A stretch of 47,607 nucleotides of DNA from Candidatus Cloacimonadota bacterium (GTDB lineage Bacteria > Cloacimonadota > Cloacimonadia > JGIOTU-2): the NCBI GenBank assembly GCA_016932035.1, contig JAFGDR010000066.1, forward strand, positions 1-47,607, read 5' to 3'. Of this stretch, positions 18,061-47,433 are shown piece after piece. The notes beneath the pieces were generated by a model. That model saw only the letters and a list, made by a program, of their open reading frames with translations, was not told the origin of the DNA and ran no database searches. Both the position numbers and the translations under genes were made by a program. The number at the start of each line of letters is the position of its first letter. Position 1 is the first letter of the stretch.

Positions 18061-19675
18061 ATGACCAATTATTATCGTTATCCTTACGGGTAAATTTATA
18101 TTCGACATCGTAGGGAGATCCTTGAGGGAAGGTAATATCAACCGTATAGAGTGAGTCATTATCAGGATCGTTCATAAGATTACTTCCTGAATTCCAATTA
18201 AGTGGGGATACATTACCTTGAATAGAAACGCCATTGTTATACCAGAGATGATTGAGGTTACCCATATACACACCAAAGGTTACAGTCACGTCTCTTGAGG
18301 TTTGATTAACCCAGGGCAAAATATACTGCAACGTTTGTACAGAATCACTTTTTACAAAAAATTGGGGATTTGGTCCAACAATAAGCCACTGATTGTTTTG
18401 ATCTTCTGCTCCCCACTCCCAAGTCTTTGTTGAATCTGCAACAAGATATTTTAATCGTGACCAAAAATGATCATTGGGTGTCACATCTCCATGTGTTCCG
18501 TCATCATACATCTGTTCTGTGGCACCACCACCCCAAGTAGCATCATAGATTCCTGTCTCTTTATTCCAGCTCCCTTTAAGATAACAATTCGTCAATCGCA
18601 CATTAGCAGTATCAACGATAACAAACGTAATAGGAGCATATTCATAAGAAGTAAATGATGCTGTGTTGTTATTGGGATCTAAATGTGAGCCATTGCTATC
18701 TGTTACAGTAGTATCAACTGTCACAGTATATAGTGTATTGCTTTCGAAACCTGTCGTTTCTACTCTATAGATTTGGTTTGTTATCATACTCACATCTTCT
18801 ACTGTAACATCTTTTTTACTTGATGTGATCGAGTAATTTGTAGGATCAAGAGTGGTTGTAGTATCCATTGCTTCACTAAAAGTGACATCAAACAAATACT
18901 CATTATATGGATCAGCTGACACAACTTTTGGTTTTCCACCCACTGTATATGTATAATTATTTCCAGCGTTATTATCGTAAGCTAATGTGATAAAATCAAA
19001 ATTCGATGTCGGATTTGCAACTGTTGTTGAAAATACATAGTAACTCACTAGTGTTCCTTCTGTTTGTGCGGGAATTTCAGCAGTACCTTGTGTTCCAGTA
19101 AAAGAAACTTCCTCTAGATTATCTGATGTCCAATTATCAGTAGAATATCTTACGTAGATATACTCTTCTGAACACTTTGCTGTTGAAATATCTACAGTAA
19201 CGGTCACAAGATCTTCATTTGTTACTGAATCAGCAACAGGACTCTGGGTTACAGAAGTAATACTTACAGGTGAAGCACTGGTTTCCAATACAATTCCCTG
19301 AGTATTATTATATCCTACGTCCTTGAATTTAAAGGTATAATAATAATTTTCTGTCACACTAGTTGTGATCCAATTACTTACTCCTGGATCATAATTATAA
19401 AAGGTTAGATCAACAACTTCATTTACATCACCAGAACCACCTACCCAACGGTTACCCCAGCTCCAATTCATAAAAAGATACTGTGAAGAATCTGGATCTG
19501 AACTAGTTGCTTCAATAGTCATATACCAAAAATCCTCAGCAAGATTGTCATCGAATTCCATTTTTGTCGTATTCCACCCATTCAATTCTGGATGAACACG
19601 AAGAGTGTCATTCAATTCTGCAGAAAGAGGATAAACTATACATAACATGAGCAAAAAGACTATACTTTTTTTCAT
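17750..19675 (-). CDS. Secreted multi-module starch-binding protein without catalytic domain
   Basis: A 641-residue exported protein with a signal peptide (1-19). Modules in order: an N-terminal beta domain (20-130); an Ig-like domain with KCSEEYIYVRY (133-245) shared with the protein at 13304-14674; a Big_5/SbsA-like domain (248-345, FDVTFSEAMDTTTTLDP); a module with MYDDGTHGDVTPNDHFWS (350-455), the pattern of starch-enzyme accessory domains; a CBM20-like domain (460-563, ending NRSFAIDDSSPT); and an FN3-like C-terminus nearly identical to that of the GH57 protein at 9818-13177. No glycosidase motifs are seen. It probably binds starch at the cell surface. It is the last gene of the long minus-strand series and is followed by a strong terminator. 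Confidence 0.78.
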   Translation of the reverse strand: MKKSIVFLLMLCIVYPLSAELNDTLRVHPELNGWNTTKMEFDDNLAEDFWYMTIEATSSDPDSSQYLFMNWSWGNRWVGGSGDVNEVVDLTFYNYDPGVSNWITTSVTENYYYTFKFKDVGYNNTQGIVLETSASPVSITSVTQSPVADSVTNEDLVTVTVDISTAKCSEEYIYVRYSTDNWTSDNLEEVSFTGTQGTAEIPAQTEGTLVSYYVFSTTVANPTSNFDFITLAYDNNAGNNYTYTVGGKPKVVSADPYNEYLFDVTFSEAMDTTTTLDPTNYSITSSKKDVTVEDVSMITNQIYRVETTGFESNTLYTVTVDTTVTDSNGSHLDPNNNTASFTSYEYAPITFVIVDTANVRLTNCYLKGSWNKETGIYDATWGGGATEQMYDDGTHGDVTPNDHFWSRLKYLVADSTKTWEWGAEDQNNQWLIVGPNPQFFVKSDSVQTLQYILPWVNQTSRDVTVTFGVYMGNLNHLWYNNGVSIQGNVSPLNWNSGSNLMNDPDNDSLYTVDITFPQGSPYDVEYKFTRKDNDNNWSWENIANRSFAIDDSSPTQILDWVYWDDVMPVPQNVTIAVVGSDVNLTWDGVFGATDYGVYRSTDPYSGFTLIGNTGGVTNYQDSGAGDNYRAGKFFYQIKGVR

Positions 19676-27313: not shown

Positions 27314-30232
27314 TTATTTCAATATTGCTCCACTCATCGCTGGCAGCTCGAGTTCGACAACATCATGTATCACATTATAAGATGCGCCATCGAGAAGATT
27401 TGTCACTGATTTTTGTCCTGTTGTGATCGGGATACTGACCTTCATTAGTTCTTTATTATTATTGATGACTACGGTGATCGAGCAATCATCATTGCTGCGC
27501 TTGTATGCATAGACCATACCTTCGGTCAGTACAGTGTGGAAATCGCCTGTCCTCAGGCACGAATAGTTTTTACGAATTTTGATGAGTTTCTTATACCAGT
27601 CTCTGAGTGCGACTCTTTCGGGATCTTCGGTATATTTCCAGTTCATAGGACGACGGCAGTCAGGATCGTGTGCACCCATCATACCGATCTCATCACCGTA
27701 CCAGATATGTGGAGCACCGACATAGGTCATCGAGAATAGCATGGTAAGTCTGAGTTTACCCAGATCACCATTGATTGTCTCGAGATATCGGAATGTGTCA
27801 TGGCTGTCGATCAGGTTCATCATTGTCTGCACTGCCTGGATGGGATAGGCAAGCAAGCCTTGTTTTATATCGCGGTCAAAGGTCTTAGCGCTGCAGCTTC
27901 TCATTGCAAAGAAACGCATGACCGGATCTTTAAAGAATGCATAGTTCATCACAGCATCGAAGTAATTACTGTTCACCCAGTCCGTTGCATTGCCCCAGAG
28001 TTCGCCAACAAGATAGGCATCCGGTTTAAGTGATTTTACTTTATCGCGGAACAGTTCCCAGAACCAGAACGGCACTTCGTTGGGAACGTCCAGACGGAAA
28101 CCGTCGCAGTCCATATCACCGATCCAGTATTCGGCAACATCAAGAATGTAATTCACGACATCCCAGTTAGGATCAGCATCATTGATGTTCTTGATACCAT
28201 TCTCTGCAGGATTGGGAAGTGTGAGATCATAGTTAAGATCGGGCATTTCTCCGACACCCCACCAACATTCATAATAATCTGCAGGACTATATTTTGCAGG
28301 GATCGGATCTGGCAAAGGCCATTTCTTGAATTCATACCAGTGCCAGTATGGTGAATCAGGTCCATTCTTCAATGCGTCCTGAAAAGCCCAAAATGTCTCA
28401 CCTGTATGATTGAAAGCACAATCTATGATCACATGAATACCATGCTCGTGTGCTTCTTTTACAAATTTTTTAAATTCATCTGCTGTTCCAAAATGGGGAT
28501 CGAGTTTCATGTAATCGACTGCATCATATTTATGATTTGATTTTGCTTCGAAAAGTGGATTGAAATAAATAACGGTTATGCCGAGGTCTTCGAGGTAACC
28601 TAATTTTTGTCGAACACCTTCGATGTCGCCACCATAGAATGACCACCAGTCCGGCTTACCGTCATGACGATAGGGATTGCTCTTTAAGCTGGATATGTCA
28701 TACCAGTCATCAACAAGGTGGAAGTATTGTTTATTTGGAGGAAGCTTTTTGCCGGGTGCAGGAGGTTTATTCACTCCTTCATAGTACCATTCTGTGAAAT
28801 CCTGATCATTGGATTTGTCGCCATTATAAAATCTGTCGCAGAAAATTTGGTAAATGATACCATTTTTGACCCAATCCGGTGTAAAGAACGGTTCGACGAC
28901 ATCTTTGGAATAGTGGAAAACTTTGGATTCATCAAAAGTTTCGGTTAGTGCACCATCGATAAGGTAGAATTCTTTTCCACCATCAACATAGATAAAATAG
29001 TAGTCAAACTCATCATCAGGTGAGTTGAGTTCGATGATCTTCTGATAGTAATCGAAGGTATCATCAGAATCTATGAAATCCATCTCGATCTTTTCACCAT
29101 CTTTCCATAGATAGATCGCTTCAAGGTCATTGCGATGTGCTTTGGCTTTGAATTGAATGGATGTTTCGGAGAGAGGGTTTACTGTTTCGAGCGATTGTTC
29201 GGTTGGGATTCCATAGGTCATGATCTCACCGTCACCAACTTCTATCTGTACTCTTGGGAACCGTTCATCCACATCAAGGATAGAGTTCTGACCACCAAAA
29301 CCGTCATCAGCAAATCGGGATGCACTCATATCAGTAATCCAGTCGGTTCCATTTACCACAAACTTATATTGATACTCACCGCCTTTAAGGAGTAGCGTTG
29401 TTACATACACTCCGTCTTCGGTTTCTTCCATTTGATTGGCTTTCTGGTTCCATCCATTAAATGATCCAGCTAAGTAAACGTCGTTCACGCCTTCTTTATC
29501 AGGATTGTATGAAAATTCAACTTTATAGAGTGCATCGATATCTTCTTTTTTGCCGACAAACACGATCGCATTCTGTCCACCAAAGCCGTCGCCGATAAAT
29601 TCTGCTGCATTTTCGTCGGTGACCCAGTTGCCATCAACAACAAATTTATAGGCATATTTGCCTTTGGGAAGCTGAACAGTGGCAGTATACACACCGCTAT
29701 CTTCCTTCAATTTTATATCACTATCGGACCAGTTATTGAATTCACCGGCAAGATATACATCATGCTTTCCACCGGTTAGAGGTTGATATTCAAAAGTGAC
29801 TGGAAAAACTCCGCTTTTCGGTTTAACTTCTTCTTGGATTGTGGTTGCCATTTGTTTATCTCCAACGGTTATTACTGAATTTTGTCCGCCGTATCCATCG
29901 TCGGCGGTATTTGGATTATTCGGATCAGCTTTCCATTCCGAACCGTTAACAACGAATTTATACTGATAGGAGCCGGGCTCGAGATCCATGGTAATTGTCC
30001 ACAAATCGCCCTTTTTTATCATCGAGTTTGCACCCGGATCCCAGGAATTAAAATCACCAGCGATCGTAACTGATTCAGCATCGGGTGCTTCAAACGTAAA
30101 GGCTGTGCTGCCTTCCTGGGGTGTTGTTTGAGCAGTCGGTTGTGTTTGTCCTTCGAACTCACCGAATCCCAGTGTTGCGCATCCTGCGATGAGCAAAGGA
30201 ATGATGAGGATTAGAAATGCATAACGTTTCAT
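27314..30232 (-). CDS. Lipoprotein alpha-amylase/neopullulanase (GH13) with three CBM48-like domains
   Basis: A 972-residue outer-surface or periplasmic lipoprotein (lipobox LIAGC, Cys18). Three AMPK/CBM48-like glucan-binding domains follow (about 45-124, 142-227, 235-322); each has a FNSW/FNNW/FNGW strand and ends in DG[YF]GGQN. After a linker beta domain (330-445) comes the GH13 barrel (about 450-880): IIDCAFNHTG, FRLDV (nucleophile Asp715), VGELW (acid/base Glu744), LIDSHDT (Asp812) and the neopullulanase-type strand MPDLNYD. A C-terminal beta-sandwich ends the protein. It should cut starch, pullulan or cyclodextrins. A strong AGGAGG precedes the ATG. It lies 20 bases after a lipoprotein gene, in one operon with the CBM48-barrel gene. 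Confidence 0.93.
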   Translation of the reverse strand: MKRYAFLILIIPLLIAGCATLGFGEFEGQTQPTAQTTPQEGSTAFTFEAPDAESVTIAGDFNSWDPGANSMIKKGDLWTITMDLEPGSYQYKFVVNGSEWKADPNNPNTADDGYGGQNSVITVGDKQMATTIQEEVKPKSGVFPVTFEYQPLTGGKHDVYLAGEFNNWSDSDIKLKEDSGVYTATVQLPKGKYAYKFVVDGNWVTDENAAEFIGDGFGGQNAIVFVGKKEDIDALYKVEFSYNPDKEGVNDVYLAGSFNGWNQKANQMEETEDGVYVTTLLLKGGEYQYKFVVNGTDWITDMSASRFADDGFGGQNSILDVDERFPRVQIEVGDGEIMTYGIPTEQSLETVNPLSETSIQFKAKAHRNDLEAIYLWKDGEKIEMDFIDSDDTFDYYQKIIELNSPDDEFDYYFIYVDGGKEFYLIDGALTETFDESKVFHYSKDVVEPFFTPDWVKNGIIYQIFCDRFYNGDKSNDQDFTEWYYEGVNKPPAPGKKLPPNKQYFHLVDDWYDISSLKSNPYRHDGKPDWWSFYGGDIEGVRQKLGYLEDLGITVIYFNPLFEAKSNHKYDAVDYMKLDPHFGTADEFKKFVKEAHEHGIHVIIDCAFNHTGETFWAFQDALKNGPDSPYWHWYEFKKWPLPDPIPAKYSPADYYECWWGVGEMPDLNYDLTLPNPAENGIKNINDADPNWDVVNYILDVAEYWIGDMDCDGFRLDVPNEVPFWFWELFRDKVKSLKPDAYLVGELWGNATDWVNSNYFDAVMNYAFFKDPVMRFFAMRSCSAKTFDRDIKQGLLAYPIQAVQTMMNLIDSHDTFRYLETINGDLGKLRLTMLFSMTYVGAPHIWYGDEIGMMGAHDPDCRRPMNWKYTEDPERVALRDWYKKLIKIRKNYSCLRTGDFHTVLTEGMVYAYKRSNDDCSITVVINNNKELMKVSIPITTGQKSVTNLLDGASYNVIHDVVELELPAMSGAILK

Positions 30233-30252: not shown

Positions 30253-31212
30253 TTAATATTGTCTGCTGAAGACGGTTGTAAAGCTGAATTGATCATCCTG
30301 TTGAGGGATTGTATCATCGCATACGTATGGCGCTCCACCGCCACCAATAAGTGCAACTAAAGCCATTTTAGTACCTATAGGCACTTCACCACTGCTATAA
30401 ATCTCAGTAAAGGGAATAGCCATCTCTATAACTGAAGCGTTCACTGCAATATTTGCATCTAGAATATGTTGATCTACTGCTGATGGATATTCCAAACTTA
30501 CTACAGCAATATCACTTACTAATGCCCACCCTGAATATGCAAGGTCAGCGCCAAAGTTATCAGGTGCAGTTACATTTTTATTTAAATGATCACCATATCC
30601 GCCCCCGGTAATTTCCGAAAAGTCATTAATACCGGTTCCTTTCCCATAATCCTTATCAATGTAAATGTTCACGGTATTATCGGCACTAGAAAATGTTCCA
30701 TCAACTGCAATATACAGACTATCATCACTTCGTGCCAGATAGAGATGTACAAAATTATTACCTGCCCAACCTGATTCATGTGTATTTTCATACACAGGTT
30801 CCCAAGTAGGATCTATTATTCCGTCAATCGTAATGATTTTTACTTCTATCCTTTTTATAACATCTAATTCAACTGTATCAATCGTAGTTGTTGAATATGC
30901 GCTAAGTTGAATATCTGTAACGGTAAAATCATCATAATCAGGTGCAGAGACATTGAGTTGATAGGTGCCTTCTGAGAGATTCTTGATCTCAAAAGCTCCT
31001 GTTGCATCTGTCGTGGTTTCACCTTGCAGTGTGGAAACACCGGATTTGTATGCCTGCACAGTTGCAGTTAACGTATCTGGTGAACCATCTTCAAACTGTA
31101 TGATTCCCTTAAGAATTGCATTGTAGCTGTATGGTGCAAGGAAAGGAGTTTTATCACAACTCATTAAAAACACTGCTGTAATTAAAATTGCTAAAATAAA
31201 TATTTTTTTCAT
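30253..31212 (-). CDS. Lipoprotein with carboxypeptidase-regulatory-like and DOMON-like domains
   Basis: A 319-residue lipoprotein (FLMSC, Cys19). Residues about 35-115 form a CarboxypepD_reg-like beta-sandwich (TTTDATGAFEIKNLSEGTYQLNVSAPDY). Residues about 120-319 resemble the CBM9/DOMON-type domain also seen in the proteins at 19782 and 36015 (IDGIIDPTWEPVYEN, then DDSLYIAVDGTF, then IEMAIPFTEIY). No catalytic residues are recognised. It lies between the GH13 lipoprotein and the small CBM48-like lipoprotein with gaps of 20 and 12 bases, so a surface carbohydrate-binding role alongside them is likely but inferred. Confidence 0.78.
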   Translation of the reverse strand: MKKIFILAILITAVFLMSCDKTPFLAPYSYNAILKGIIQFEDGSPDTLTATVQAYKSGVSTLQGETTTDATGAFEIKNLSEGTYQLNVSAPDYDDFTVTDIQLSAYSTTTIDTVELDVIKRIEVKIITIDGIIDPTWEPVYENTHESGWAGNNFVHLYLARSDDSLYIAVDGTFSSADNTVNIYIDKDYGKGTGINDFSEITGGGYGDHLNKNVTAPDNFGADLAYSGWALVSDIAVVSLEYPSAVDQHILDANIAVNASVIEMAIPFTEIYSSGEVPIGTKMALVALIGGGGAPYVCDDTIPQQDDQFSFTTVFSRQY

Positions 31213-31224
31213 TGAAACCTCTTC

Positions 31225-31650
31225 TTAGTCGACAATAAGGACAGAATTATATCCGCCATAGCCATCATCCGTGACTTCAAAGGCATTGGGATCTTTCACC
31301 CATGTATTTCTGTCGATAACAAATTTATATTCATATCTTCCTGGAGCGAGCTTTTTGATGACCGTCCAGATGCCGTCATCAGCAATTCTGTCTCCGTGCG
31401 TTCCATCATCATACATCAAGTCGATCTGCTCGTTGAAGCTTCCTGATGCTGTGGCAGTTCCGCTCCACATATTATCCGGAAAACTTCCAGATAATGTTAC
31501 AGTCCGTGCAGAAGGAGCATCGAACTGGAAGATATATCCGCCCGGCACTTTATGAGGTGAGGGGAGACGTTTTTTGATAAAATTTAAGGAGCAGCCAGTG
31601 ATGAGAACGAGGATCATCAAAACTATCATAGTTAATTTTATTATCTTCAT
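31225..31650 (-). CDS. Small lipoprotein consisting of one CBM48-like glucan-binding domain
   Basis: A 141-residue lipoprotein (LITGC, Cys20). The mature part is one early-set/CBM48-like domain: FQFDAPSARTVTLSGSFPDNMW, MYDDGTHGDRIADDGIWTV, GRYEYKFVIDRNTW and the ending DDGYGGYNSVLIVD. The last motif is shared with the GH13 enzyme's modules and with the N-terminal domain of the barrel encoded 8 bases upstream. The insert DDGTHGD resembles the module in the protein at 17750-19675. It is probably a surface glucan-binding lipoprotein, loosely like SusE/F in role but not in sequence. Confidence 0.85.
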   Translation of the reverse strand: MKIIKLTMIVLMILVLITGCSLNFIKKRLPSPHKVPGGYIFQFDAPSARTVTLSGSFPDNMWSGTATASGSFNEQIDLMYDDGTHGDRIADDGIWTVIKKLAPGRYEYKFVIDRNTWVKDPNAFEVTDDGYGGYNSVLIVD

Positions 31651-31658
31651 AATGATCC

Positions 31659-33605
31659 TTAAAATGTTATCACAGCTTCGAGTCCGATTCGCTGCTCTTG
31701 AGTGAGAGATTTCTCAGCCATGCGAATACGTTCACCCATAGCAGTATAGCTGTTCTCAAGATACGTTTCGAAATTACCAATATCATTAAGGTATTCAAAT
31801 CTACCAATTGGCATGAATTCATCAGAGATATCGCTCAGCGCAAAGGGATTCACACCCCAATAGAGTGAGAGCTTCACATTTGTGCTGAGATGATAGGTTA
31901 AGCTGGTAAAGTTTGCCCAGAACACATCTTCCCATGTACTGTAATCAGTCTTAAGCCCAAGGAATGGATCATTATAAATGGGAATCCTGCAATCGGTATA
32001 GAGTGACCATTTCGGTGAGATGTTCCAATTCCAGAAGATCGTATTCTCTATGAGTTTGGGTTCATACTTGAAATCCTGCTGCGCGATCTTTCCGTCATAG
32101 CCAACAGCAAAATCTAGTCCGAAGAAATCGAAGGCATACTTTGCGGCAATATCCCAGAAAAGTGCAGTTTCATAACCGACAAGTGTATATTGCGCATAAG
32201 GAACCTCAGAGCAGGTCTGGAACCAGCGCCCATTTGCATCGGTGCGTTCCATATACACATAGTAGTCACGCCAGCTTAGGGCGCTGTCAGGAAATACTGT
32301 TTTCCATGTGCTAAGTGAAATGTGTGCGAAGATGTCGTCGGTATAGAATTTCGTGCCGACGGTAAAAATATTCTTTGTGATGTCCTTCTGTAAAGAGACC
32401 TTGTTTTTCTGATAGGAGGCATACGCACTGAGTGCAGCTGGGAAATCGATTTTTACGCCTGCATAGATACGATCACCGTTTGCGAATTCAGTTTTTACTG
32501 AATCCATATTCATGTTATCTGTATCTTTGAATTGATAGTACTCGCCCATAAGTGAGATATTCAACGGTGCTGTCCAACCAGGTTGATCGAATGCGTAACC
32601 AAGTTGAAGATCGACTTCCGAACTCACATGCTCCTGAGAGGATGTCGATGTTACCGGTACCTGGGCATGATATTCACCATATCCAATTTTTATAGATGCA
32701 GTTTCCGGAATGACATGAAAATCTCCGCTTGCTCTACCTGCTTTCACATCCATATCATTATCGCCGACATTATCTCCAAACACTGCTTCGAAGTTGAAAT
32801 TGAATGGAATATTAGCAAGAGGTAGTATGATCGTCGGCACTTTTGATTTGGCATACACTCCCATGACTTCATATCCGAAATCATAGTTCCTGTATCCAAT
32901 AGCACCAACAATATGAAGGGGATCGTCAAAAGTGAGGAATCCATATTTATCAAAAGCCCGAACAAAGAAATAAGGTGCATCAAGTTTGAGATAGCTACGC
33001 TTGAAGTTGAGATGCGTCTTCCACATATCAACACCTTCAGCGATGTTGTTAATGTTCATGACAGTGTAGCCCTCAACCTGAGAATTGAACTTGATCTTCA
33101 TACCAAGATTCATATCATAAAGCGGTTTATCGAGCATCAGCTTGCCATTGTACTCTTCCTTTTCGAAGATATTTTTGCTGTACACGCGTCCATCGAAAAG
33201 AACTTTGGGGTTAAGAAAGGTTCGGACACCGGTTTGCTTTTGCTCGACAACTTTTTCGGTCACCAGACCACCAGATGAACTTACTTCGACGAGTGAATTC
33301 ACACCACCGTAACCGTCATCCTGTTGTTTGGGATTATCGGGATCGGCATACCAGTTACCATCAACCACGAATTTGTACATGTATGCACCGCTATCAAGCG
33401 GAATGACAATATACCAGACGCCGTCTTCATCCATTTCCATAATGTGTGCACCGGTGTTCCAGTCATTGAATTCACCTGCCACACTGACCTCTCCGGCATT
33501 GGGCGCTTCATAGTAAAATTTAACACCCTTTTTTGTTATTCCAACTCCTGCATACGCAGAAGCGGTTATACAAAGAATTATAACGAAAAGTATTACTTTT
33601 CTCAC
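31659..33605 (-). CDS. Outer-membrane beta-barrel with N-terminal CBM48-like domain
   Basis: A 648-residue exported protein with a signal peptide (1-19). Residues about 23-110 are a CBM48-like glucan-binding domain (KFYYEAPNAGEVSVAGEFNDW, then YMYKFVVDGNWYADP and DDGYGGVNSLVEV). From about 130 to the end the sequence alternates polar and hydrophobic residues in long amphipathic strands rich in aromatics and ends in VITF with a terminal Phe, as outer-membrane barrels do. There is no TonB box or plug domain, so it is not SusC-like. The start is GTG, supported by AAGGAG 5 bases upstream. The next gene upstream encodes another barrel (32-base gap). The likely role is a maltodextrin porin with its own glucan-binding domain, an architecture I do not recall as described. 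Confidence 0.8.
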   Translation of the reverse strand: MRKVILFVIILCITASAYAGVGITKKGVKFYYEAPNAGEVSVAGEFNDWNTGAHIMEMDEDGVWYIVIPLDSGAYMYKFVVDGNWYADPDNPKQQDDGYGGVNSLVEVSSSGGLVTEKVVEQKQTGVRTFLNPKVLFDGRVYSKNIFEKEEYNGKLMLDKPLYDMNLGMKIKFNSQVEGYTVMNINNIAEGVDMWKTHLNFKRSYLKLDAPYFFVRAFDKYGFLTFDDPLHIVGAIGYRNYDFGYEVMGVYAKSKVPTIILPLANIPFNFNFEAVFGDNVGDNDMDVKAGRASGDFHVIPETASIKIGYGEYHAQVPVTSTSSQEHVSSEVDLQLGYAFDQPGWTAPLNISLMGEYYQFKDTDNMNMDSVKTEFANGDRIYAGVKIDFPAALSAYASYQKNKVSLQKDITKNIFTVGTKFYTDDIFAHISLSTWKTVFPDSALSWRDYYVYMERTDANGRWFQTCSEVPYAQYTLVGYETALFWDIAAKYAFDFFGLDFAVGYDGKIAQQDFKYEPKLIENTIFWNWNISPKWSLYTDCRIPIYNDPFLGLKTDYSTWEDVFWANFTSLTYHLSTNVKLSLYWGVNPFALSDISDEFMPIGRFEYLNDIGNFETYLENSYTAMGERIRMAEKSLTQEQRIGLEAVITF

Positions 33606-33637: not shown

Positions 33638-35149
33638 TTAAAACCATGCTTTATACACAACTTGCAATTGCTTTTGCATCGAACCACCGGACACAAAGCT
33701 GTCATCATTGACCAGACCGTAACCGCCGTACCAGCTTGGACCATACTGAAGATACAGCTCAGAATTGCCGCCAATCCTATATTGGATCTCAGCAAAAAAA
33801 CTCATACGAGATCCAACCCTGTCGTTAACGACCATTCCTCGTGCAAAAGCACGCCATCGTTCCGAGAGATTAACCGCACATTCTATACCTGCGATTTGCT
33901 TTTCCCACGTTTCACCAATATCTTTTATCTTGAATTGAGTGAGAAGTTTTGCCAATTTATTCTCAACAGAAAGTTCTGCAAAAAAATCATTATGTTTATA
34001 TTTTTCTCCGTGCCAAACTTCATCCTTTTTATTGTAATAAACCTTGCCCTTGAAGCCGTTCACAAACTCGATATATGCTTCAGCATAGATGTTCGAAACC
34101 GGATCGAGACTATATCCGATCGAGTATTCCTGGCCTTCAAGCTTCTTATGTTGTGAGTAGTTCAAGGTAAACGTAATTGCTCTTTGCGGAACAAAATAGT
34201 ATGTATTCACCCAGACACCGTATTCATCAGACTTGTTTTCACCCATATAGTTTCGATAGCATTTTCCGTACGTCCATACGCCGGGATTGATGAACCAGTA
34301 ACCATAACTCGGATGACCAACACGGAAACCGCGGAATTCCATTTTAGCAGCGACGTTGGTTTTGAAGAATTCTCCAAGACCTTTAAAATAATCACCATCA
34401 TCAAAATAATCTTTACTTCGTTGCCTGTAATACTTCAGCGTATCTTTTATTTCCTGTTCGGAAGGCACTCTGGAAAATGCGAATTCCATATTGAGCTGAT
34501 AATTACCAAGTTCTGCATGCTCATCAAAAGCCCAGACTTCGTTATAGGAATCCTTTTCGCCGATACCATAGTTTTTTCTCTGGTAGAACATACCGGCTCG
34601 AAGATTGTTTTTAAATACTTGCTGCCGATATCGTACAAGATGGATATCATCGCTGTCACCCTGCGAGAAATCTGAGAACACGTAGGTTGCGCTTCCGCCG
34701 AAGGTTGCCCACAGATCAAAACGAACACCCTGACCATTGCCGTCATTATTAACCGAACCGGTATTGAGCACATTCAGCAAAGAACCGTCTGTCCAATAAT
34801 GATTATTCTCACGGCTGAACAGAACTGCATTGAAGCCACGACCATTAAGTTCCTGCCTGTAAGAAATATGCCCTTCTGCAAAGATCGCTTCAGAATGATC
34901 CATCATCTGACCATTTTCATTCCATTTATCAGCATAGAATTTTACATATGCTTCTGAATTGGCAATAGGATTTGCATAGAGCCGAAGTTCCACTTTGAAG
35001 TCAGGATCCCAGAGATTCCAATGAAAGCTGTCCGTCTCATACTTTGTGCCGAACACACTTTCCAGATAACCTTCCAGGCGAACCTGTGCATTGAGTGAAA
35101 TACTGATCGCAAGCAGAAAAAGTAGTACAAAAATTATTCTTTTTTTCAC
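33638..35149 (-). CDS. Outer-membrane beta-barrel protein, porin-like
   Basis: A 503-residue exported protein with a signal peptide ending near SLNA (about 1-21). The rest is a run of amphipathic strands with frequent aromatic girdles (VRLEGYLESVFGTKYE, FKVELRLYANPIANSEAYVKFYADKW) and a terminal Phe in VVYKAWF. This fits a porin-like barrel of about 16-18 strands. The start codon is GTG. It lies between the PorV-like gene (26-base gap) and the CBM48-barrel gene (32-base gap), so it may be a second sugar channel. The exact substrate cannot be read from the sequence. Confidence 0.75.
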   Translation of the reverse strand: MKKRIIFVLLFLLAISISLNAQVRLEGYLESVFGTKYETDSFHWNLWDPDFKVELRLYANPIANSEAYVKFYADKWNENGQMMDHSEAIFAEGHISYRQELNGRGFNAVLFSRENNHYWTDGSLLNVLNTGSVNNDGNGQGVRFDLWATFGGSATYVFSDFSQGDSDDIHLVRYRQQVFKNNLRAGMFYQRKNYGIGEKDSYNEVWAFDEHAELGNYQLNMEFAFSRVPSEQEIKDTLKYYRQRSKDYFDDGDYFKGLGEFFKTNVAAKMEFRGFRVGHPSYGYWFINPGVWTYGKCYRNYMGENKSDEYGVWVNTYYFVPQRAITFTLNYSQHKKLEGQEYSIGYSLDPVSNIYAEAYIEFVNGFKGKVYYNKKDEVWHGEKYKHNDFFAELSVENKLAKLLTQFKIKDIGETWEKQIAGIECAVNLSERWRAFARGMVVNDRVGSRMSFFAEIQYRIGGNSELYLQYGPSWYGGYGLVNDDSFVSGGSMQKQLQVVYKAWF

Positions 35150-35175: not shown

Positions 35176-36018
35176 TTAAAATTGAAGCCCGAAGGAAACG
35201 CGGTATGTGCTTCCCAATTCTTCATGGGAATAGACCGCACCATCGAGATTCCAATGTTTTGCTTTTAAACCGAAACCGACCGTCAAATATTCTCTGTTCA
35301 GACCGATACGAGGTGCAAAGACATCAAAGAACCAGATCTCCCAACCGAAATGCACACTACTCTCGTCTTTATCCCATTGATAATCCAGGAGAAAGTTCAC
35401 CACATCACGCCATCGATAATGAGTGCCAAGCGTAAAGTTACGATTGAGTTTTTCATTCTCAGAAAGCAGTTTGATGCTTGGTTCAAAGATATTTCGTGCC
35501 ACGAATCCAATGGAGAAATTCTTCAGTGGAGTTGTGATCAAACCTGCATCTATATCGAATTTAGATGCATCCTTTGCATCGTCATACCCGGGTACTCGTA
35601 GGCTGTAATTATCCAGACTTAATCCAAATCTGATCGGGATGTTCTTATACCAGATGATACTTGCTGCTGATACTGCGATCACCTGCTCTGCATACTCATT
35701 CAATAGATTGATCTGTGACCAGCCGGCACCAAGATGCACAAATTTCAGAGGTATCGAAACAGCGACCATTTGATTATACAAGTCACCGATCTCATAGAGA
35801 TTTTGATGAGATGCGAGGATTGAATAGGTGTTCACATAGGATAGGCCTGCAGGATTCCAAAATACTGCAGAAGGATCATTGGCAAGTCCCACATACGTTT
35901 CTCCCAGCGCCATGGGTCGCGCTCCCCAATTCATACCGATAAAATTTGCTGAGAGCAGACCTGGAACGAGGATGACTAAAGAGAATATCAATAACTTCTT
36001 GTTCAATACTTTTTTCAT
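35176..36018 (-). CDS. PorV/UPF0164-family outer-membrane barrel
   Basis: A 280-residue exported protein. After the signal peptide (about 1-24) it shows the family hallmark WGARPMALGETYVGLANDPS followed by AVFWNPAGL, then about 14 predicted strands and a terminal Phe (SFGLQF). In Bacteroidota, PorV/PorQ-like proteins of this family shuttle or cap substrates of the type IX secretion system at the outer membrane. Here it sits directly after three genes whose products carry FlgD-Ig/type IX-like tails and overlaps the last of them by 4 bases (ATGA), which suggests coupled translation. I infer that it handles the export of these starch-binding proteins. Confidence 0.82.
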   Translation of the reverse strand: MKKVLNKKLLIFSLVILVPGLLSANFIGMNWGARPMALGETYVGLANDPSAVFWNPAGLSYVNTYSILASHQNLYEIGDLYNQMVAVSIPLKFVHLGAGWSQINLLNEYAEQVIAVSAASIIWYKNIPIRFGLSLDNYSLRVPGYDDAKDASKFDIDAGLITTPLKNFSIGFVARNIFEPSIKLLSENEKLNRNFTLGTHYRWRDVVNFLLDYQWDKDESSVHFGWEIWFFDVFAPRIGLNREYLTVGFGLKAKHWNLDGAVYSHEELGSTYRVSFGLQF

Positions 36019-37151
36019 TTTATTACCGAAATTGCTTCGTTATGACTTACTTCTTTTGAGTCCGACACCACTCTTAGTACATAAATGCCAAAGGGAACGG
36101 TGTTGCCATGTTGATTTTTGCCATCCCATTCCCACTCTTGTGTGGTTTCGTCGATGATCTGAGCTTTTCCAACGTACTCACCGCGAACATCATAAATCTC
36201 AACATTAAATGCTGTGACCCGGTTGGGATCGATCTTGAATGAGAGTGTTTCTCCCTGATCAGGTGCAAAGACTTTCCCGTCCGGAAATTCAACTTTATTA
36301 ACATTCAAGGGAATTTCTTCAAAAGGTGGTGTTTTATAAAAATGGACTCTTTCTTTTGGACTTATTCCGATGTCAGGACTACCATCGCCTGTGGAATCTA
36401 CAACAATTGATACATAGTTATCAAGCACTGCGGTTGAGATCCCGTCGCTGGGCATGCCACCGAGATTATTGGGTATCACATCGGGTCCGCCAAGATTATC
36501 TGAGCCGGTTGTGATGACTGCAAGCATCTTGAGTTCTGGAAAATTCTTCATAGAATGTGTCGAATCATAATAGATCACTTCCCATGGAATTGCTGCTTCC
36601 ATCGCCCTGCCAAGATTTCCTGTATTGTAGGTCGAATAATCTTCGATCGATATCTCGTCAGCTTGTAGCGATGAACCTTCACGCATCTTCCAGAATTGCG
36701 GATTATCATTCGTATCCCAGGTAGCAAGGAAGAAATCGGGATTAGTGCCGTAGAAGGTGAATGCCCTCATCCAGGTGTTCAGATCGAGCATATCATGAAT
36801 GCCATACGAAGGATAGATATCGAGATAGTAGATAACATTATTATCCCAGGAACAAGCATCGATTGCAACGTACAAATTGGTGAGATCCCATGTCAGATCG
36901 ATCTGCTTCACATCGTTGTATTCACCCCACCATGAATCGTCATCCAATTCTTGAGATTCTGCGAGAGGTTCTTTGATAAAGAGTCGTTCATTATCCTCGA
37001 AATCGTTACTGAATCCATCTATGATGATTCGACCACTCAAGTCGTCACCTGTGGTGGCTGAAAGCGAGGTGACAGAAAAAATTATTAATAATAGAAAGAA
37101 GAGACCCCGATTGAACAACCGGGATCCCCTTATTTTGTTATAATTTGTCAT
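36015..37151 (-). CDS. Secreted DOMON/CBM9-like protein with type IX-like sorting tail
   Basis: A 378-residue exported protein. The signal peptide has a long positive N-region (about 1-32). Residues about 40-250 resemble the DOMON/CBM9-type domain (IIIDGFSNDFEDNERLF, TWDLTNLYVAIDA, AMEAAIPWEVIYYDST), a fold often binding carbohydrate or heme. The last about 80 residues are a FlgD-Ig/type IX-like domain (FNVEIYDVRGEYVGKA, WEWDGKNQHGNTVPFGIYVLRV). No SPNPF motif is present, so the tail is a variant. No good Shine-Dalgarno is seen; translation may be coupled to the upstream gene, which ends 9 bases earlier. Confidence 0.75.
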   Translation of the reverse strand: MTNYNKIRGSRLFNRGLFFLLLIIFSVTSLSATTGDDLSGRIIIDGFSNDFEDNERLFIKEPLAESQELDDDSWWGEYNDVKQIDLTWDLTNLYVAIDACSWDNNVIYYLDIYPSYGIHDMLDLNTWMRAFTFYGTNPDFFLATWDTNDNPQFWKMREGSSLQADEISIEDYSTYNTGNLGRAMEAAIPWEVIYYDSTHSMKNFPELKMLAVITTGSDNLGGPDVIPNNLGGMPSDGISTAVLDNYVSIVVDSTGDGSPDIGISPKERVHFYKTPPFEEIPLNVNKVEFPDGKVFAPDQGETLSFKIDPNRVTAFNVEIYDVRGEYVGKAQIIDETTQEWEWDGKNQHGNTVPFGIYVLRVVSDSKEVSHNEAISVIK

Positions 37152-41352: not shown

Positions 41353-42189
41353 TTATCCTTTAACACTACCCAGCGTAAGCCCTGAAACAAGCCATTTGCT
41401 GAGAATTAAAAATACAATTATAACAGGTATGCTGATAATCAGCGCACCAGCAGCATACATTCCCCATTGTGTTGTCATATTTCCTTGCAAACTCTTCAAC
41501 CCAAGCGGAATTGTGAACATGTCTTCATACCACAAAACCTGTGCTGCAACCACATATTCATTCCATGCTGCCATAAAAGAAAAAAGTGCGGTAATTACGA
41601 GTGCAGGTGATGCAAGCGGAATGATGATCTTCCAAAAGGAATAGAATTTACCTGCTCCATCTACTTTTGCAGATTCCTCCAGACTCGATGGGATCGTATC
41701 ATAATAACCTTTCATAAGCCAGATACAGAAGGGAAGAGCTGATGCACTGTACATAATGATTAGTCCGACAAAACTGTTCACTAAACCAAGCTTCGAGATC
41801 ATAATATACAACGGAAGAAGAAGCATTGTTGCAGGGAACATCTGCGTAACAAGTAAAGCGAGAAGACCTGCTTTTCGTCCGGGAAATTTATACCTTGAAA
41901 AAGCGTATCCCGCAGTCGAAGAAAGTGCCACACCGATGATCGTTACTGCGAGTGTAACCAGCAAACTATTTCTGATCCACAGAAGAAATGGTTTTTGCGT
42001 AAAGAGTTGCACATAATTATCAAACGTTGCATCTTCTGGTATGATGCGCAGGGATGTATTGAGAAGGTTATCTCCGGGACGAAGGGATATTGTGAGGACA
42101 CGCAGTACCGGGAAAATCGAAATTGCAACAAAAATAAGGAGAACTGAGTAAATAATTACATACTGGTACCATCGTTTCATTTTTGTCAT
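41353..42189 (-). CDS. malG: Maltose/maltodextrin ABC transporter permease MalG
   Basis: An inner-membrane permease of 278 residues with six predicted helices, matching MalG in length and pattern. The EAA loop that contacts the ATPase is visible (EESAKVDGAGKFYSFWK, then IIPLASPALV). It pairs with the MalF-like half of the fusion gene just upstream. ATG 42189 is chosen because AGGTGG lies before it; a GTG at 42198 directly after the upstream stop is in frame and would add three residues. Sugar specificity is inferred from the family and from the surrounding starch genes. No MalK-type ATPase is encoded in the window. Confidence 0.93.
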   Translation of the reverse strand: MTKMKRWYQYVIIYSVLLIFVAISIFPVLRVLTISLRPGDNLLNTSLRIIPEDATFDNYVQLFTQKPFLLWIRNSLLVTLAVTIIGVALSSTAGYAFSRYKFPGRKAGLLALLVTQMFPATMLLLPLYIMISKLGLVNSFVGLIIMYSASALPFCIWLMKGYYDTIPSSLEESAKVDGAGKFYSFWKIIIPLASPALVITALFSFMAAWNEYVVAAQVLWYEDMFTIPLGLKSLQGNMTTQWGMYAAGALIISIPVIIVFLILSKWLVSGLTLGSVKG

Positions 42190-42198
42190 GTACGCCAC

Positions 42199-44484
42199 CT
42201 ATGCCTTTTCCGCTACATTGGATCTCTTCATGAATGTCACGCTGAAGATTACCAGAATCAGGAAGATAACCATTGAGAAAGCTGCCGCATATCCATACCG
42301 GTACAGGTTGAACGCTGCCCGATACACGTACGAAACCAGTATATGAGATTTATCTGCTGGTTGCCCGCCATTCGTGACCAACCATATAACTGTCAGTTTA
42401 TTAAATGTCCACACAATACCAAGTGTGATCGCTGGTATCATAACAGGTTTAAGAAGTGGAACAGTCACTTTCCAGAATCGCTTCCATGCAGATGCCCCAT
42501 CTATTTCCGCTGCTTCGTACAATTCTTTAGGAATTGACTGCAAGCCACCAAGCGCAATGATCATCATAAAAGGAACTCCAAGCCAGATGTTCGTGATCAT
42601 GCTTGCAATAAAGGCAGTTGTTGCTTCCGAAAGCCAGTTCACCGCAGGTATACCGAGTTTATGCAAGATCAGGTTTATCGCTCCGGTATCATACATAAAC
42701 ATACCCCGCCACGTGAGCGCTGTAATATATTCCGGAACTGCCCAGGGGAGTATCAGCAGTACACGTATGATCGCTTTGCCGGGCAGATATCTGTTTAAAA
42801 GGACTGCAAGAAATACACCGATCGTAACGTGGAAAAAGACATTTACTACCGTCCAAACGACTGTCTTAAAAAAGACAGAATAAAAAATCTTCTCTGCAAA
42901 GACCTGCAAATATTGCCCGAAACCGATTATTGTCCATGAGTTGACATTCGTCATATTCATATTGGAAAAGGAAAGAACAATATTATAGAAAAATGGATAG
43001 ATGACCACACCAAAAAGAATTACGGAAGCAGGCAGAGCCATAAAAACAGCAAAACGGGCATTTTTTGTCTCAAAGGAATTTGGCTTCCTCATCAGGGCGA
43101 GAATAAATTTAAAAACAAGAACATACGTAAGATATAAACCGAGTGCTATGCCAAGAACAAAAAATATAGTCGAAGCCAGTGTGGTCTCTTCAGCACTTTC
43201 ATCAGAGCCTTCATACATTTCGGCAATTTTCTGAACGCAGAGTTCCTGCTGATATTCTGCTGCTTTTTTCGGTGACATATTGCCTGAGATCACACTTTGA
43301 AGAGCAGGACGCATCGCATCCCATGCAGCACGCATCTCGGGAATGATCGGCATAAGCTGACCAACCTCGATCTGTTCGGCTGATATCTTCATAACAGGAT
43401 CGTTTGCAATTGCCGGTCGTTCCTGGAGAGACTTCAAACTTGGAATCGACTTGAATTTTTCAACAAATTGAAGCTGTACTTCTTCTGAGGTTAGATATTT
43501 AAGCAGAAGCTTGGTTGCTTCCAGCACTTCTCCTTTTGCTGAGCCATTCACTGAATAGCCCGTTGCAGAAACCATCGGTTTGCACCACTCCTGTGTCTCT
43601 TCAACATAGGGTATGCGTGCAAGTCCGAAATCTACATGCGGTGAAGCAATATATTTGTTCCATGACCAGTCACCATTAATAATCATTGCAGCATTGCCCT
43701 GGTTGAACATGTTGTCAGCAATATCATAATCGCATTCCGGAGGCATGATCTTATATTTGTTCCTCATATCGAGGATGAGCTGAAATGCTTTTTCTGCAGC
43801 CGGTGAGTCGAGTTCAGGATTATTATCCTCATCAAATACCTCTCCACCATATCCTCCAAAGAATGGAACGAACCAGAAGGGTTCGGTGTAATTCCATACA
43901 AGTCCCCACTGATCTATCGTGCCGTCATTGTTTGTATCTTTCGTTAATTTTTGACCAAATTGGAGAAACTCTTCGATTGTTTGGGGTGGATCGCTGATCC
44001 CGGCTTCATCAAACAATTTCTTGTTGTAAACAAGTGCAAGATGATTTCCGAGTCTGTCTGCGATTTGATAGATATGACCTTTATATCGGACAAGCCCCTG
44101 ATCAACGAATTTGTGATAGAATTCTTCAGGATAGAGATCCTCCATCGGCATGATGATGCTTATATCACTATTCTTCTGCTTCATCACCTCGAAAGGACCG
44201 ATCTGATCCATAGGACCATACACGAGCTCGGGACCTCCACCGGTAAACGCTGCAGCTGCCTGGTAACCGGTTCTGAGTTCCTCAGTTCCTTTGGCAAGCA
44301 CCACGACTTCAATATCAGGATTGTTTTCCTCAAATTCCTCGATCACCTGCTTGAGCACAGGTCTTTTCTCCGGTTCCATCTGATGCCAGAGATGAACCAC
44401 TGTTTTTTCTTTCTCCTCTCTCTTGCATCCAAACGATGCCAAAACCAGAAGTATGATAAGAAAAATCAGTACATTTTTTTTCAT
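42199..44484 (-). CDS. Fused maltose-binding protein and permease (MalE-MalF)
   Basis: A 761-residue single reading frame. It has a lipoprotein-type signal (ASFGC, Cys20), then a MalE-like solute-binding protein (about 28-425; VVHLWHQMEPEKRPVLKQVI, then AAMIINGDWSWNKY and YLTSEEVQLQFVEKF), a short linker and a MalF-like permease (about 436-755) with the EAA loop EAAEIDGASAWKRFWKVTVP (657-676). I count seven helices after the binding protein: one extra helix (about 436-464) returns the chain to the cytoplasm before the six-helix core. The binding domain is thus tethered to its channel. The stop is followed directly by malG. No clear Shine-Dalgarno precedes the ATG. The ATPase must come from elsewhere. 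Confidence 0.92.
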   Translation of the reverse strand: MKKNVLIFLIILLVLASFGCKREEKEKTVVHLWHQMEPEKRPVLKQVIEEFEENNPDIEVVVLAKGTEELRTGYQAAAAFTGGGPELVYGPMDQIGPFEVMKQKNSDISIIMPMEDLYPEEFYHKFVDQGLVRYKGHIYQIADRLGNHLALVYNKKLFDEAGISDPPQTIEEFLQFGQKLTKDTNNDGTIDQWGLVWNYTEPFWFVPFFGGYGGEVFDEDNNPELDSPAAEKAFQLILDMRNKYKIMPPECDYDIADNMFNQGNAAMIINGDWSWNKYIASPHVDFGLARIPYVEETQEWCKPMVSATGYSVNGSAKGEVLEATKLLLKYLTSEEVQLQFVEKFKSIPSLKSLQERPAIANDPVMKISAEQIEVGQLMPIIPEMRAAWDAMRPALQSVISGNMSPKKAAEYQQELCVQKIAEMYEGSDESAEETTLASTIFFVLGIALGLYLTYVLVFKFILALMRKPNSFETKNARFAVFMALPASVILFGVVIYPFFYNIVLSFSNMNMTNVNSWTIIGFGQYLQVFAEKIFYSVFFKTVVWTVVNVFFHVTIGVFLAVLLNRYLPGKAIIRVLLILPWAVPEYITALTWRGMFMYDTGAINLILHKLGIPAVNWLSEATTAFIASMITNIWLGVPFMMIIALGGLQSIPKELYEAAEIDGASAWKRFWKVTVPLLKPVMIPAITLGIVWTFNKLTVIWLVTNGGQPADKSHILVSYVYRAAFNLYRYGYAAAFSMVIFLILVIFSVTFMKRSNVAEKA

Positions 44485-44586: not shown

Positions 44587-45726
44587 CTATTTTTCATCTA
44601 ACAATTTTGCATACATCTCTTTTGTTTGCTTTGCGATGATCCTCCAGTCAAAGTACACTTCGACTCTCTTTCGTCCGTTTTCGCCGAATTTCTTCGCTAA
44701 TGATTTATCATTAAGTAATATATTTATTTTCTCGGCAAGCTCCTTGGGTTTTTGGGGCTCGACAAAAAATCCTGTTTCTCCTTCAACAACTACTTCTTTG
44801 ATACCGCCAACCTTGCTGGCAACCACGGGTGTCTTGCACGCCATTGCTTCAAGATTAATGATGCCGAAGGGTTCATAAATCGAAGGACAGGCAAAGACAG
44901 ATGCATTGCTGTACAACTCAATATACTGTTCTTCTTTTAAGAGTTTATTGATCCAAAGGGTATTTGTGGTCTCATTCATCTTCTCGGTCAGCATCTGCTC
45001 TATTTCAGGAGTGTCCGGTGCGCTCGTGCAAAAGACAACTTTAGCTTTGATGTCTTTGGCAGCTTCGATTAGATAGATCATTCCTTTCTGTATGGTGGTA
45101 CGCCCTACAAAAAGCACATATTCCTCATCGATACCATATTCTTTGAGCGTATGACCTGTAAGCGTTTCTTTCCACTTGCGTGTATCGATCCCGTTATAAA
45201 TAACGGCGATCTTCTTTTCGTCGATGTTGAAATATTTCAGGATGTCTTCCTTCATCATTTTCGAAACTGCCACGACTCTATCTGCGTTCTCAATGCCGAG
45301 TTTTTCCACCCAGCTGCTGAGACGATAGCCAGCTCCGAGCTGCTCTTCCTTCCATGGTCTGAGGGGTTCGAGACTGTGGGAAGTGAGAACGAATTTATTA
45401 TTATAGAGTATCTTTGCCAGGAATCCAGCAAATGCAGCATACCACGTGTGCGTATGCACAATATCTGAATCCATAACATCATTCACGATCGAAAGATCGA
45501 TGCCAAGCGTGTCCAGCGCTTTACTGATACGAGGATCACCATCAAAATCACCGATCGATGAATACCCTTTGACGCGGTATCCATTTTCTGTGATATCCTG
45601 GTCACCGAAAGTACGAACCTCAACATCTATTAATTTTCGTAGTTCTTGCACCAGATAACGAACATGCACACCTGCTCCGCCATAGACGTTCGGCGGATAT
45701 TCTTTTGAAATAAATGTAACTTTCAT
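44587..45726 (-). CDS. glgM: GT4 glycogen synthase / maltose-1-phosphate synthase, GlgM-like
   Basis: A 379-residue cytoplasmic GT-B enzyme, the length of the actinobacterial-type GlgA/GlgM and shorter than classical GlgA. Visible: the N-terminal glycine-rich loop PNVYGGAGVHV, HTHTWYAAFAG, the donor-site residues Arg209 and Lys214 in GRTTIQKG and the E-x7-E pair Glu285/Glu293 in YEPFGIINLEAM. Members use ADP-glucose either to extend glucan or, as shown for mycobacterial GlgM, to make maltose-1-phosphate from glucose-1-phosphate. The gene 12 bases upstream encodes GlgE, which consumes maltose-1-phosphate, so the GlgM function is the better inference. Confidence 0.88.
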   Translation of the reverse strand: MKVTFISKEYPPNVYGGAGVHVRYLVQELRKLIDVEVRTFGDQDITENGYRVKGYSSIGDFDGDPRISKALDTLGIDLSIVNDVMDSDIVHTHTWYAAFAGFLAKILYNNKFVLTSHSLEPLRPWKEEQLGAGYRLSSWVEKLGIENADRVVAVSKMMKEDILKYFNIDEKKIAVIYNGIDTRKWKETLTGHTLKEYGIDEEYVLFVGRTTIQKGMIYLIEAAKDIKAKVVFCTSAPDTPEIEQMLTEKMNETTNTLWINKLLKEEQYIELYSNASVFACPSIYEPFGIINLEAMACKTPVVASKVGGIKEVVVEGETGFFVEPQKPKELAEKINILLNDKSLAKKFGENGRKRVEVYFDWRIIAKQTKEMYAKLLDEK

Positions 45727-45738
45727 ATAAACCTGCTC

Positions 45739-47433
45739 TTATTTTTTATATAGGGTGAAAATCCATGCCGGATCTTCATTGGATAATGTTATTGATATTT
45801 CTCTTCCTTTATGTGTAAAGCTTTTCCCGGATAACAATTCCTCAACCGTATATTCCTCATCGTAAGGTATGCCAAATTTTTCAAGAGGAATCTGTATGAC
45901 ACTTTGATGCTCGTTATAAGCATCCATATTTATAGCAACAAGGACCGTGTTTTCATTATCATAAGATGTCTTTCCATAAAATAGAATGTGTTCATCAGAA
46001 GATTCATAAAAGGAAAGATTCCTGTAATAATGAAGCGCTTTGTTCTCCTTGCGGATCTGGTTGAGTTTTATTATGTATGATTTGATATTTCCCGGTCGAT
46101 CCCAGTCCCAGACTTTGTATTCATATTTTTCAGAATTAAGATATTCTTCGGTTCCAGGAACAGCTTTATTCTCGCACAATTCGTAACCATTATACATTCC
46201 ATATACAGATGATAAGGTTGCAGCAAGAACGATACGCTGGAGAAAAGCGGGGCGTCCTGCTTCCTGCAGAAGCGGCATGAGGATATCAGGGGTATTGGTA
46301 AAGAAGTTACCGCGAAAATAATACTTCATCTCAGTCATAGTCAGTTCGGTAAGATATTCGGTGAAATCCTGTTTATTGTAACGCCAGGTGAAATACGTAT
46401 AGGACTGAGTGAAGCCTACTTTTGCGAGTTGCTTCATCATTGTTGGTTCGGTAAATGCCTCAGCCAAAAGGATTGCACCGGGATCTTTTGCATGTATTTC
46501 TTCGATCACCCACTGCCAGAACTCGACAGGTTTTGTATGAGGATTATCAACCCTGAAGGTTCGAATTCCCTGATCGATCCAGAAGAGGAAGATATCACGT
46601 AGCTCATTCCAGAGCAGCTCTTTATTTTCGCATTCAAAATTCAAGGGATGTACATCTTCGTATTTCTTTGGAGGATTTTCCGCATATTTTATCGAACCAT
46701 CAGGATTGTGATAGAACCATTCAGGATGCTGCTTGATCCATGGATGGTCTGGTGAGCATGTAAACACAATATCAATTACGAGTTCGATACCGAAATTTTC
46801 TGCTTCTTTAATAAAACGATGAAAATCATCCATTGTTCCAAAATCCGGATTTACAGCTTTATGACCGCCATGTTCATTACCAATTGAATACAGACTTCCT
46901 GGATCTTCAGGTCCAGCATTGAGAGAGTTATTTTGTCCCTTTTTATTTGTGTGCCCAACAGGATAAATGGGTGCAAGATAGATCGTATCAAAACCGAGAT
47001 CGTGGACATACGGCAAACGATTGATCATATCACCAAAGGTGGCACTCTTGCCTGGAACTGTTCCCTGTGAGCGAGGCCACATTTCATACCACGCAGCATA
47101 ACGAGCTCGAGGACGGTCAAAACAGACTTCATATATTCGTTCATGTATGATCTCTTCACCTTCGAATAATATGGAGAATGTATATTCATATAATCCAACC
47201 ACATCAGCTTTAATAAAACCTTCGAATTGATGTTCATCTGCAGACTGCATAACTTGATCTTCCCAGAGTTTCTCACCTTTTCTGCGGAATTTGAGTTGTA
47301 TTTTTATCTGTGAAGTATCTCCTTCAACTGTTATCCAAACCTTAAAAGGAAGGTCGGTTTCCCATTTGCAATAATACTGTCCATCATCGACGAGTGGACC
47401 AATATTTTTAAAAGTAATTCTATTCATATTCAT
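45739..47433 (-). CDS. glgE: Alpha-1,4-glucan:maltose-1-phosphate maltosyltransferase GlgE, compact form
   Basis: GlgE adds maltosyl units from maltose-1-phosphate to alpha-glucan in the cytoplasm. Family signatures are strong: AAWYEMWPRSQGTVPGKSAT, GFDTIYLAPIYPVGHTNKKG, DPGSLYSIGNEHGGHKA, CSPDHPWIKQHPEWF, YAENPPKKYEDVHPLNFE, nucleophile Asp296 in FRVDNPHTKP, acid/base Glu325 in LLAEAF and Asp383 in NTPDIL. It is 564 residues, while GlgE is usually about 650-700. The N-terminal beta domain (1-100) runs straight into the catalytic barrel at FDRPRARYAAWYE, so the helical insert (domain S) normally found there appears to be absent. ATG 47433 has AAGAG 5 bases before it; an ATG at 47427 is also possible. 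It is the first gene of the minus-strand cluster. Confidence 0.94.
   Translation of the reverse strand: MNMNRITFKNIGPLVDDGQYYCKWETDLPFKVWITVEGDTSQIKIQLKFRRKGEKLWEDQVMQSADEHQFEGFIKADVVGLYEYTFSILFEGEEIIHERIYEVCFDRPRARYAAWYEMWPRSQGTVPGKSATFGDMINRLPYVHDLGFDTIYLAPIYPVGHTNKKGQNNSLNAGPEDPGSLYSIGNEHGGHKAVNPDFGTMDDFHRFIKEAENFGIELVIDIVFTCSPDHPWIKQHPEWFYHNPDGSIKYAENPPKKYEDVHPLNFECENKELLWNELRDIFLFWIDQGIRTFRVDNPHTKPVEFWQWVIEEIHAKDPGAILLAEAFTEPTMMKQLAKVGFTQSYTYFTWRYNKQDFTEYLTELTMTEMKYYFRGNFFTNTPDILMPLLQEAGRPAFLQRIVLAATLSSVYGMYNGYELCENKAVPGTEEYLNSEKYEYKVWDWDRPGNIKSYIIKLNQIRKENKALHYYRNLSFYESSDEHILFYGKTSYDNENTVLVAINMDAYNEHQSVIQIPLEKFGIPYDEEYTVEELLSGKSFTHKGREISITLSNEDPAWIFTLYKK

Follow-up and report, generated by a model that had tools for sequence, protein, structure and literature searches.

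We propose that the gene at positions 31659..33605 of the window, the whole stretch of 47,607 nucleotides from a Candidatus Cloacimonadota bacterium that was analyzed here, encodes an outer-membrane malto-oligosaccharide channel within an alpha-glucan uptake locus, in which a CBM48 domain is tethered at the periplasmic mouth of the barrel; we give this reading a probability of about 0.55. Within this reading, channel activity, the periplasmic position of the CBM48, its affinity for glucan, the hand-off of chains and the location of the lipoproteins are predictions that will be taken up separately below. The union of CBM48 and barrel in one protein is not due to chance, since this architecture recurs in further Cloacimonadota and in genomes of the Marinimicrobia type. 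Cloacimonadota are a little-studied bacterial phylum, and the source genome (G000), a draft of 95% completeness, comprises 2.44 Mb divided among 66 contigs.

The CBM48 domain

The CBM-barrel protein consists of the following parts, all on the minus strand.

31659..33605, minus: CBM-barrel protein, 648 amino acids, GTG start (open reading frame, Pfam, full-length homologs of the same architecture)
33546..33605, minus: Sec signal peptide (VRKVILFVIILCITASAYA) without lipobox (sequence)
33276..33533, minus: CBM48/AMPK-beta-type glycogen-binding domain (PF16561, PF02922, invariant W48/K77/W84/N102)
33213..33275, minus: linker from CBM48 to barrel, about 20 residues, variable (low pLDDT, low conservation)
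31662..33212, minus: beta-barrel domain, 20-22 predicted strands, C-terminal Phe (AlphaFold2, Foldseek, loop asymmetry)
32169..32297, minus: loop after strand 15, 43 residues, aromatic-rich (invariant residues)
31689..31856, minus: loop preceding the last strand, 56 residues, helix inside (AlphaFold2, homolog comparison)

A preliminary description of this DNA had recognized an N-terminal CBM48 domain followed by a plug-less outer-membrane barrel ending in Phe. The first part was borne out by two Pfam families over their cut-offs, PF16561 (AMPK1_CBM) at residues 35-109 (E 2.5e-14, 53.7 bits, cut-off 26.8) and PF02922 (CBM_48) at residues 24-84 (E 1e-10, 42.2 bits, cut-off 22.4), and the PDB sequences matched by the domain belong to branching enzymes and to the glycogen-binding domains of AMPK-beta. 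Upon alignment to AMPK-beta2, the residues W48, K77, W84 and N102 proved invariant in 14/14 homologs. They correspond to Trp100, Lys126, Trp133 and Asn150 of rat AMPK-beta1, which we take to be glucan contacts on the strength of AMPK-beta with cyclodextrin. Two AMPK-beta contact positions are changed in the homolog alignment, Leu146 to Tyr or Phe and Thr148 to Gly. With the contact residues W/K/W/N retained, the CBM48 of the CBM-barrel protein is predicted to be an alpha-glucan binder. The domain was found in every full-length homolog that was read, and a same-genus relative (L047, 1819-3873) carries two tandem CBM48 domains and a long spacer ahead of the barrel. A hydrophobic N-terminus is likewise common to all homologs.

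The barrel domain

Residues 131-647 (about 517 amino acids) gave no family match in Pfam, NCBIfam or PDB sequences. In the Pfam search the protein matched neither the plug (PF07715) nor LamB (PF02264) nor the SLH domain, and no Pfam barrel family, the autotransporter barrel included. Moreover, the space between the CBM48 and strand 1 is too small for a plug, so that its absence was rightly noted at the outset.

Two AlphaFold2 runs, one including the signal peptide and one omitting it, were based on alignments of 12 sequences with 36-69% identity to the protein of the window. Each of the models contains a CBM sandwich, a linker and the same order of 22 strands, the last of which ends in Phe. 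The scores were moderate (mean pLDDT 68.9 and 72.4, pTM 0.59 and 0.62), with weak regions in strands 4-6 and at the end; because strands 5 and 6 are short and have low scores, we give the strand count as 20-22. Foldseek searches against the PDB returned outer-membrane barrels throughout the best 50 matches, among them TonB receptors, ushers, trimeric porins and AlgE, with E values down to 1e-8 and TM scores of at most 0.43. The protein also has a signal peptide, an even count of amphipathic strands (the alternation being weak in strands 4 and 9), long loops with short turns and a C-terminal aromatic residue, as outer-membrane barrels do. The outer-membrane barrel class of residues 131-647, as the preliminary description had it, is supported by this modeling, and the barrel may well be closed, as the models agree in their strand succession and the Foldseek matches are outer-membrane barrels, albeit at TM scores of at most 0.43 and moderate pLDDT.

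The loop after strand 15 is among the most conserved stretches of the barrel, with invariant P438, D439, W444, Y447, W460, Q462, Y472 and Y477, and the 56-residue loop ahead of the last strand keeps a constant length across 14 homologs. Both belong to the predicted outer side and may line or constrict the pore, and the 43-residue loop after strand 15 is a candidate constriction or substrate loop.

The gene neighborhood

The following genes surround that of the CBM-barrel protein.

36015..37151, minus: secreted FlgD_ig-domain protein, a conserved member of the block
35176..36018, minus: PorV/PorQ-family barrel (NF033709, E 2.7e-17, under the curated cut-off)
33638..35149, minus: BAR503, an orphan protein with signal peptide that ends WF, probable outer-membrane barrel
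31225..31650, minus: LP141, a lipoprotein (LITGC) consisting of a single CBM48 (PF16561, E 2e-6)
30253..31212, minus: LP319, a lipoprotein (LMSC) with a CarboxypepD_reg domain
27314..30232, minus: GH13 neopullulanase/maltodextrin-glucosidase-like lipoprotein (IAGC) with three N-terminal CBM48 (Pfam, NCBIfam)
41353..44484, minus: maltodextrin-type ABC importer (Pfam)
41353-42198, minus: MalG-like permease of this importer
42199-44484, minus: binding protein fused to a MalF-like permease in one 761-amino-acid polypeptide

In relatives with enough flanking DNA the order runs from the FlgD_ig protein over the PorV/PorQ-family barrel, BAR503, the CBM-barrel protein, the small CBM48 protein and a second lipoprotein to the GH13 protein. 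The block of BAR503, CBM-barrel and CBM48 protein, followed by the GH13 protein with CBM48, is kept in Cloacimonadota and Marinimicrobia wherever contigs allow. Most LP141 orthologs possess a lipobox; the GH13 orthologs possess one as well and bear two to four CBM48 copies in relatives, and some relatives carry a different lipoprotein at the place of LP319. The GH13 protein, the CBM48 lipoproteins and the maltodextrin-type importer place the CBM-barrel protein in the alpha-glucan setting that had been supposed for it.

From its sequence BAR503 is probably an outer-membrane barrel, and profile searches gave no Pfam and no PDB match. It is more conserved than the CBM-barrel protein and strictly paired with it. 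A comparison of the two profiles, in which they were considered as paralogs, gave a probability of 0.7% and showed no relation. In two relatives (L038, 5319-5444, and L039, 5922-6053) a remnant of a second BAR503 C-terminus lies between BAR503 and the CBM-barrel gene.

The window further encodes a GH77 protein, two GH57-type proteins, X25 and CBM20 proteins as well as GlgE-like and GT4 genes, and some proteins of the locus bear type IX secretion tails. A GH57 protein and a CBM20 protein (9818-13177 and 17750-19675, minus) have almost the same tail at the C-terminus, NTGGVTNYQD.GAGDNYRAGKFFYQIKG.R, which differs from the type IX tails of their neighbors. At 44587-47433 (minus) the GT4 glycosyltransferase gene adjoins a short GlgE-like gene, which suggests that glucan is built via maltose-1-phosphate by genes next to the uptake locus.

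Distribution and origin

A search for homologs of the same architecture, as had been advised, found the CBM-barrel protein in 12/125 Cloacimonadota genomes and, in the phylum to which the Marinimicrobia-type relative belongs, in 3/245 genomes, so that the arrangement is common to 15 species of two phyla; the named relatives are Candidatus Cloacimonadota and two further ones, TMED161 and Neomarinimicrobiota. No relative was detected on plasmids by tblastn. Six other CBM48 proteins (L014, L015, L017, L028, L029, L030) were rejected as CBM-barrel fusions, as they look like GH13-type enzymes, and a 24,339-residue open frame with CBM48 in genome G079 turned out to be an artifact of masked N in a branching-enzyme-like gene.

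BAR503 occurs in all 12 Cloacimonadota genomes with the CBM-barrel protein, in one fragmentary genome (G119) and as one marginal match (Fisher p 7e-16), and the LP141 ortholog is confined to the same 12 genomes. The gene for the fused binding protein and MalF-like permease is present in 11/12 genomes with the CBM-barrel protein vs 3/113 others (Fisher p 2e-12); the co-occurrence tests for BAR503 and the importer are not independent, as these genes are often linked. The one CBM-barrel genome in which the importer was not detected is G009. Pfam searches detected no LamB and no SusD (PF07980) in the draft of G000, whose 95% completeness leaves room for a missed gene, and 0/3 of the Plug proteins of this genome are encoded in the CBM-barrel locus.

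In a CBM48 tree (65 domains, 87 columns) the CBMs of the barrel proteins cluster together, with support of 94/92 and in 95% of bootstrap trees. Their neighbor in the tree is the first CBM of the adjoining GH13 protein, and the lipoprotein CBMs form a separate group. A single event of CBM48-barrel fusion appears to be the simplest reading of this topology. The Marinimicrobia-type loci (L058, L059, L077) contain the entire block, and their CBMs nest with one Cloacimonadota family. This nesting, together with the presence of the block in just 3/245 genomes, suggests that the CBM-barrel operon has been transferred between the phyla.

Orientation and role of the CBM48 domain

The CBM48 might be a docking or structural module without glucan affinity that assembles a complex of BAR503, LP141, LP319 and the GH13 protein. 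The strict gene pairing of BAR503, the CBM-barrel protein and LP141 would suit such a role, and early-set domains are often structural in GH13 enzymes; however, a docking module would not need the invariant W/K/W/N binding constellation, and we regard this explanation as unlikely. It also speaks against the proposed channel that BAR503 may be the real pore, with the CBM-barrel protein as an accessory.

As to the side, the strands of the models, compared across 14 homologs, are followed by loops with a mean length of 19.6 residues after odd strands and 4.6 residues after even strands. Length variation lies mostly in the loops of the long side, with the turn after strand 8 as the one clear exception. 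In outer-membrane barrels the outer loops are long and variable and the periplasmic turns short. Because the alternation seen in the models matches this asymmetry, both termini, and hence the CBM48, most likely lie on the periplasmic face.

The domain might instead fill the lumen of the wide barrel and act as a plug or gate, opened by glucan binding, in the manner of TonB receptors, whose 22-strand-wide barrel houses a plug. A 22-strand barrel would equal these receptors in width, they are among the top Foldseek matches, and the short linker is compatible with a luminal position. The tandem CBM48 domains with long spacer in L047 could, however, hardly both be luminal and would rather fit a domain that projects from the barrel, and no TonB box was seen on inspection by eye; a luminal plug is therefore doubtful.

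The preliminary description had the CBM48 concentrate maltodextrins at the pore, which we read as outside, at its mouth. Surface exposure, for instance of an N-terminus threaded out in an autotransporter-like way, would suit the capture of polymers, and Sus systems typically display their starch-binding modules at the surface. The loop asymmetry speaks for a periplasmic N-terminus instead, no autotransporter family was matched, and the barrel of about 517 residues is far larger than the usual 12-strand barrel of autotransporters, which renders surface exposure improbable. With a periplasmic CBM48, a catcher or hand-off site is more likely than an external concentrator. A periplasmic CBM48 without glucan affinity had been named beforehand as an outcome that would contradict the preliminary reading; the periplasmic part of it holds in the models, yet the predicted binding residues are invariant. 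Export of alpha-glucan, with the periplasmic CBM feeding chains into the barrel, can be largely dismissed, although PgaA and BcsC share the layout of periplasmic sugar-binding domain and barrel and although the window contains GlgE-like and GT4 genes for glucan building, since importer co-occurrence, secreted hydrolases and a debranching-type GH13 point to uptake and the families searched in the window included neither a glucan synthase of the inner membrane nor an exporter.

For the malto-oligosaccharide channel that we favor, the following mechanism can be envisaged. Secreted GH57, X25 and CBM20 proteins would cut or hold starch and glycogen outside the cell, and malto-oligosaccharides would pass in via the 20-22-strand barrel, helped by conserved aromatic extracellular loops. 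The emerging chain end would be bound by the tethered periplasmic CBM48 as a trans-side catcher, and this domain, LP141 and the CBM48-bearing GH13 lipoprotein would hold the chain within reach of the enzyme and of the MalEFG-type importer. Such capture on the trans side might make uptake effectively one-way without TonB energy. More tentatively, the CBM-barrel proteins of Cloacimonadota and Marinimicrobia might constitute a new family of glucan transporters of the outer membrane that do not depend on TonB, in which a built-in trans-side CBM gives direction and which would act together with BAR503 and CBM48 lipoproteins and without SusC/SusD or LamB.

Comparison with known systems

Starch uptake across the outer membrane is understood mainly through LamB, which is passive and has no binding module, and through SusCD, which is TonB-driven and binds at the surface. 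If our proposal is true, a plug-less barrel equipped with a module for alpha-glucan binding would add a third design of starch uptake, namely passive entry with trans-side capture. This design would explain how organisms without detectable LamB or SusD feed on starch or glycogen, and the role of porins with a periplasmic glycan-binding domain would widen from tethering of the envelope, as in OmpM, to nutrient capture.

The CBM-barrel protein would share with the maltoporin LamB the job of passive maltodextrin passage without TonB; LamB, however, has 18 strands and is not known to carry a CBM, whereas the CBM-barrel has 20-22 strands, a CBM48 and no LamB match. The Sus system of Bacteroides (SusC/D/E/F/G) likewise unites an outer-membrane barrel, CBM lipoproteins and a GH13 lipoprotein for starch in one locus, but SusC is TonB-dependent, with a plug and the SusD lid, whereas neither plug nor SusD was found here and the barrel protein itself includes the CBM. 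In PgaA and BcsC a periplasmic polysaccharide-binding domain is joined to an outer-membrane barrel as well; these proteins differ in their TPR domains, their export function and their 16 strands. Judged by its sequence, the CBM-barrel protein is not a member of the LamB, SusC, OmpM or autotransporter families.

The nearest precedents are OmpM-type porins and Cyc2. OmpM1 of Veillonella combines a periplasmic SLH domain with a barrel and is tether and nutrient-uptake channel in one (PMC10628300), and SlpA of Deinococcus is an SLH-porin (PMC9388160). Like these, the CBM-barrel protein would join an N-terminal periplasmic glycan-binding domain to an outer-membrane barrel; the SLH domain, however, binds peptidoglycan or cell-wall polymer and is attached to another barrel family, whereas the CBM48 would be aimed at alpha-glucan within an uptake locus. 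Cyc2 is a fused cytochrome-porin (PMC8406198), thus again a small N-terminal functional domain joined to an outer-membrane porin, but one whose heme domain serves electron transfer and is not known to have a carbohydrate link. As the preliminary description had supposed, such a porin appears undescribed: no CBM48-porin fusion was found in a search of the open literature, which covers few subscription journals, and the papers found there that name CBM48 together with the outer membrane concern enzymes. Our work identifies two barrel families without database match, the CBM-barrel and BAR503, the latter a barrel by prediction, and although the joining of a glycan-binding domain to an outer-membrane barrel is already known as a kind, the barrel family that bears the CBM48 is an undescribed one.
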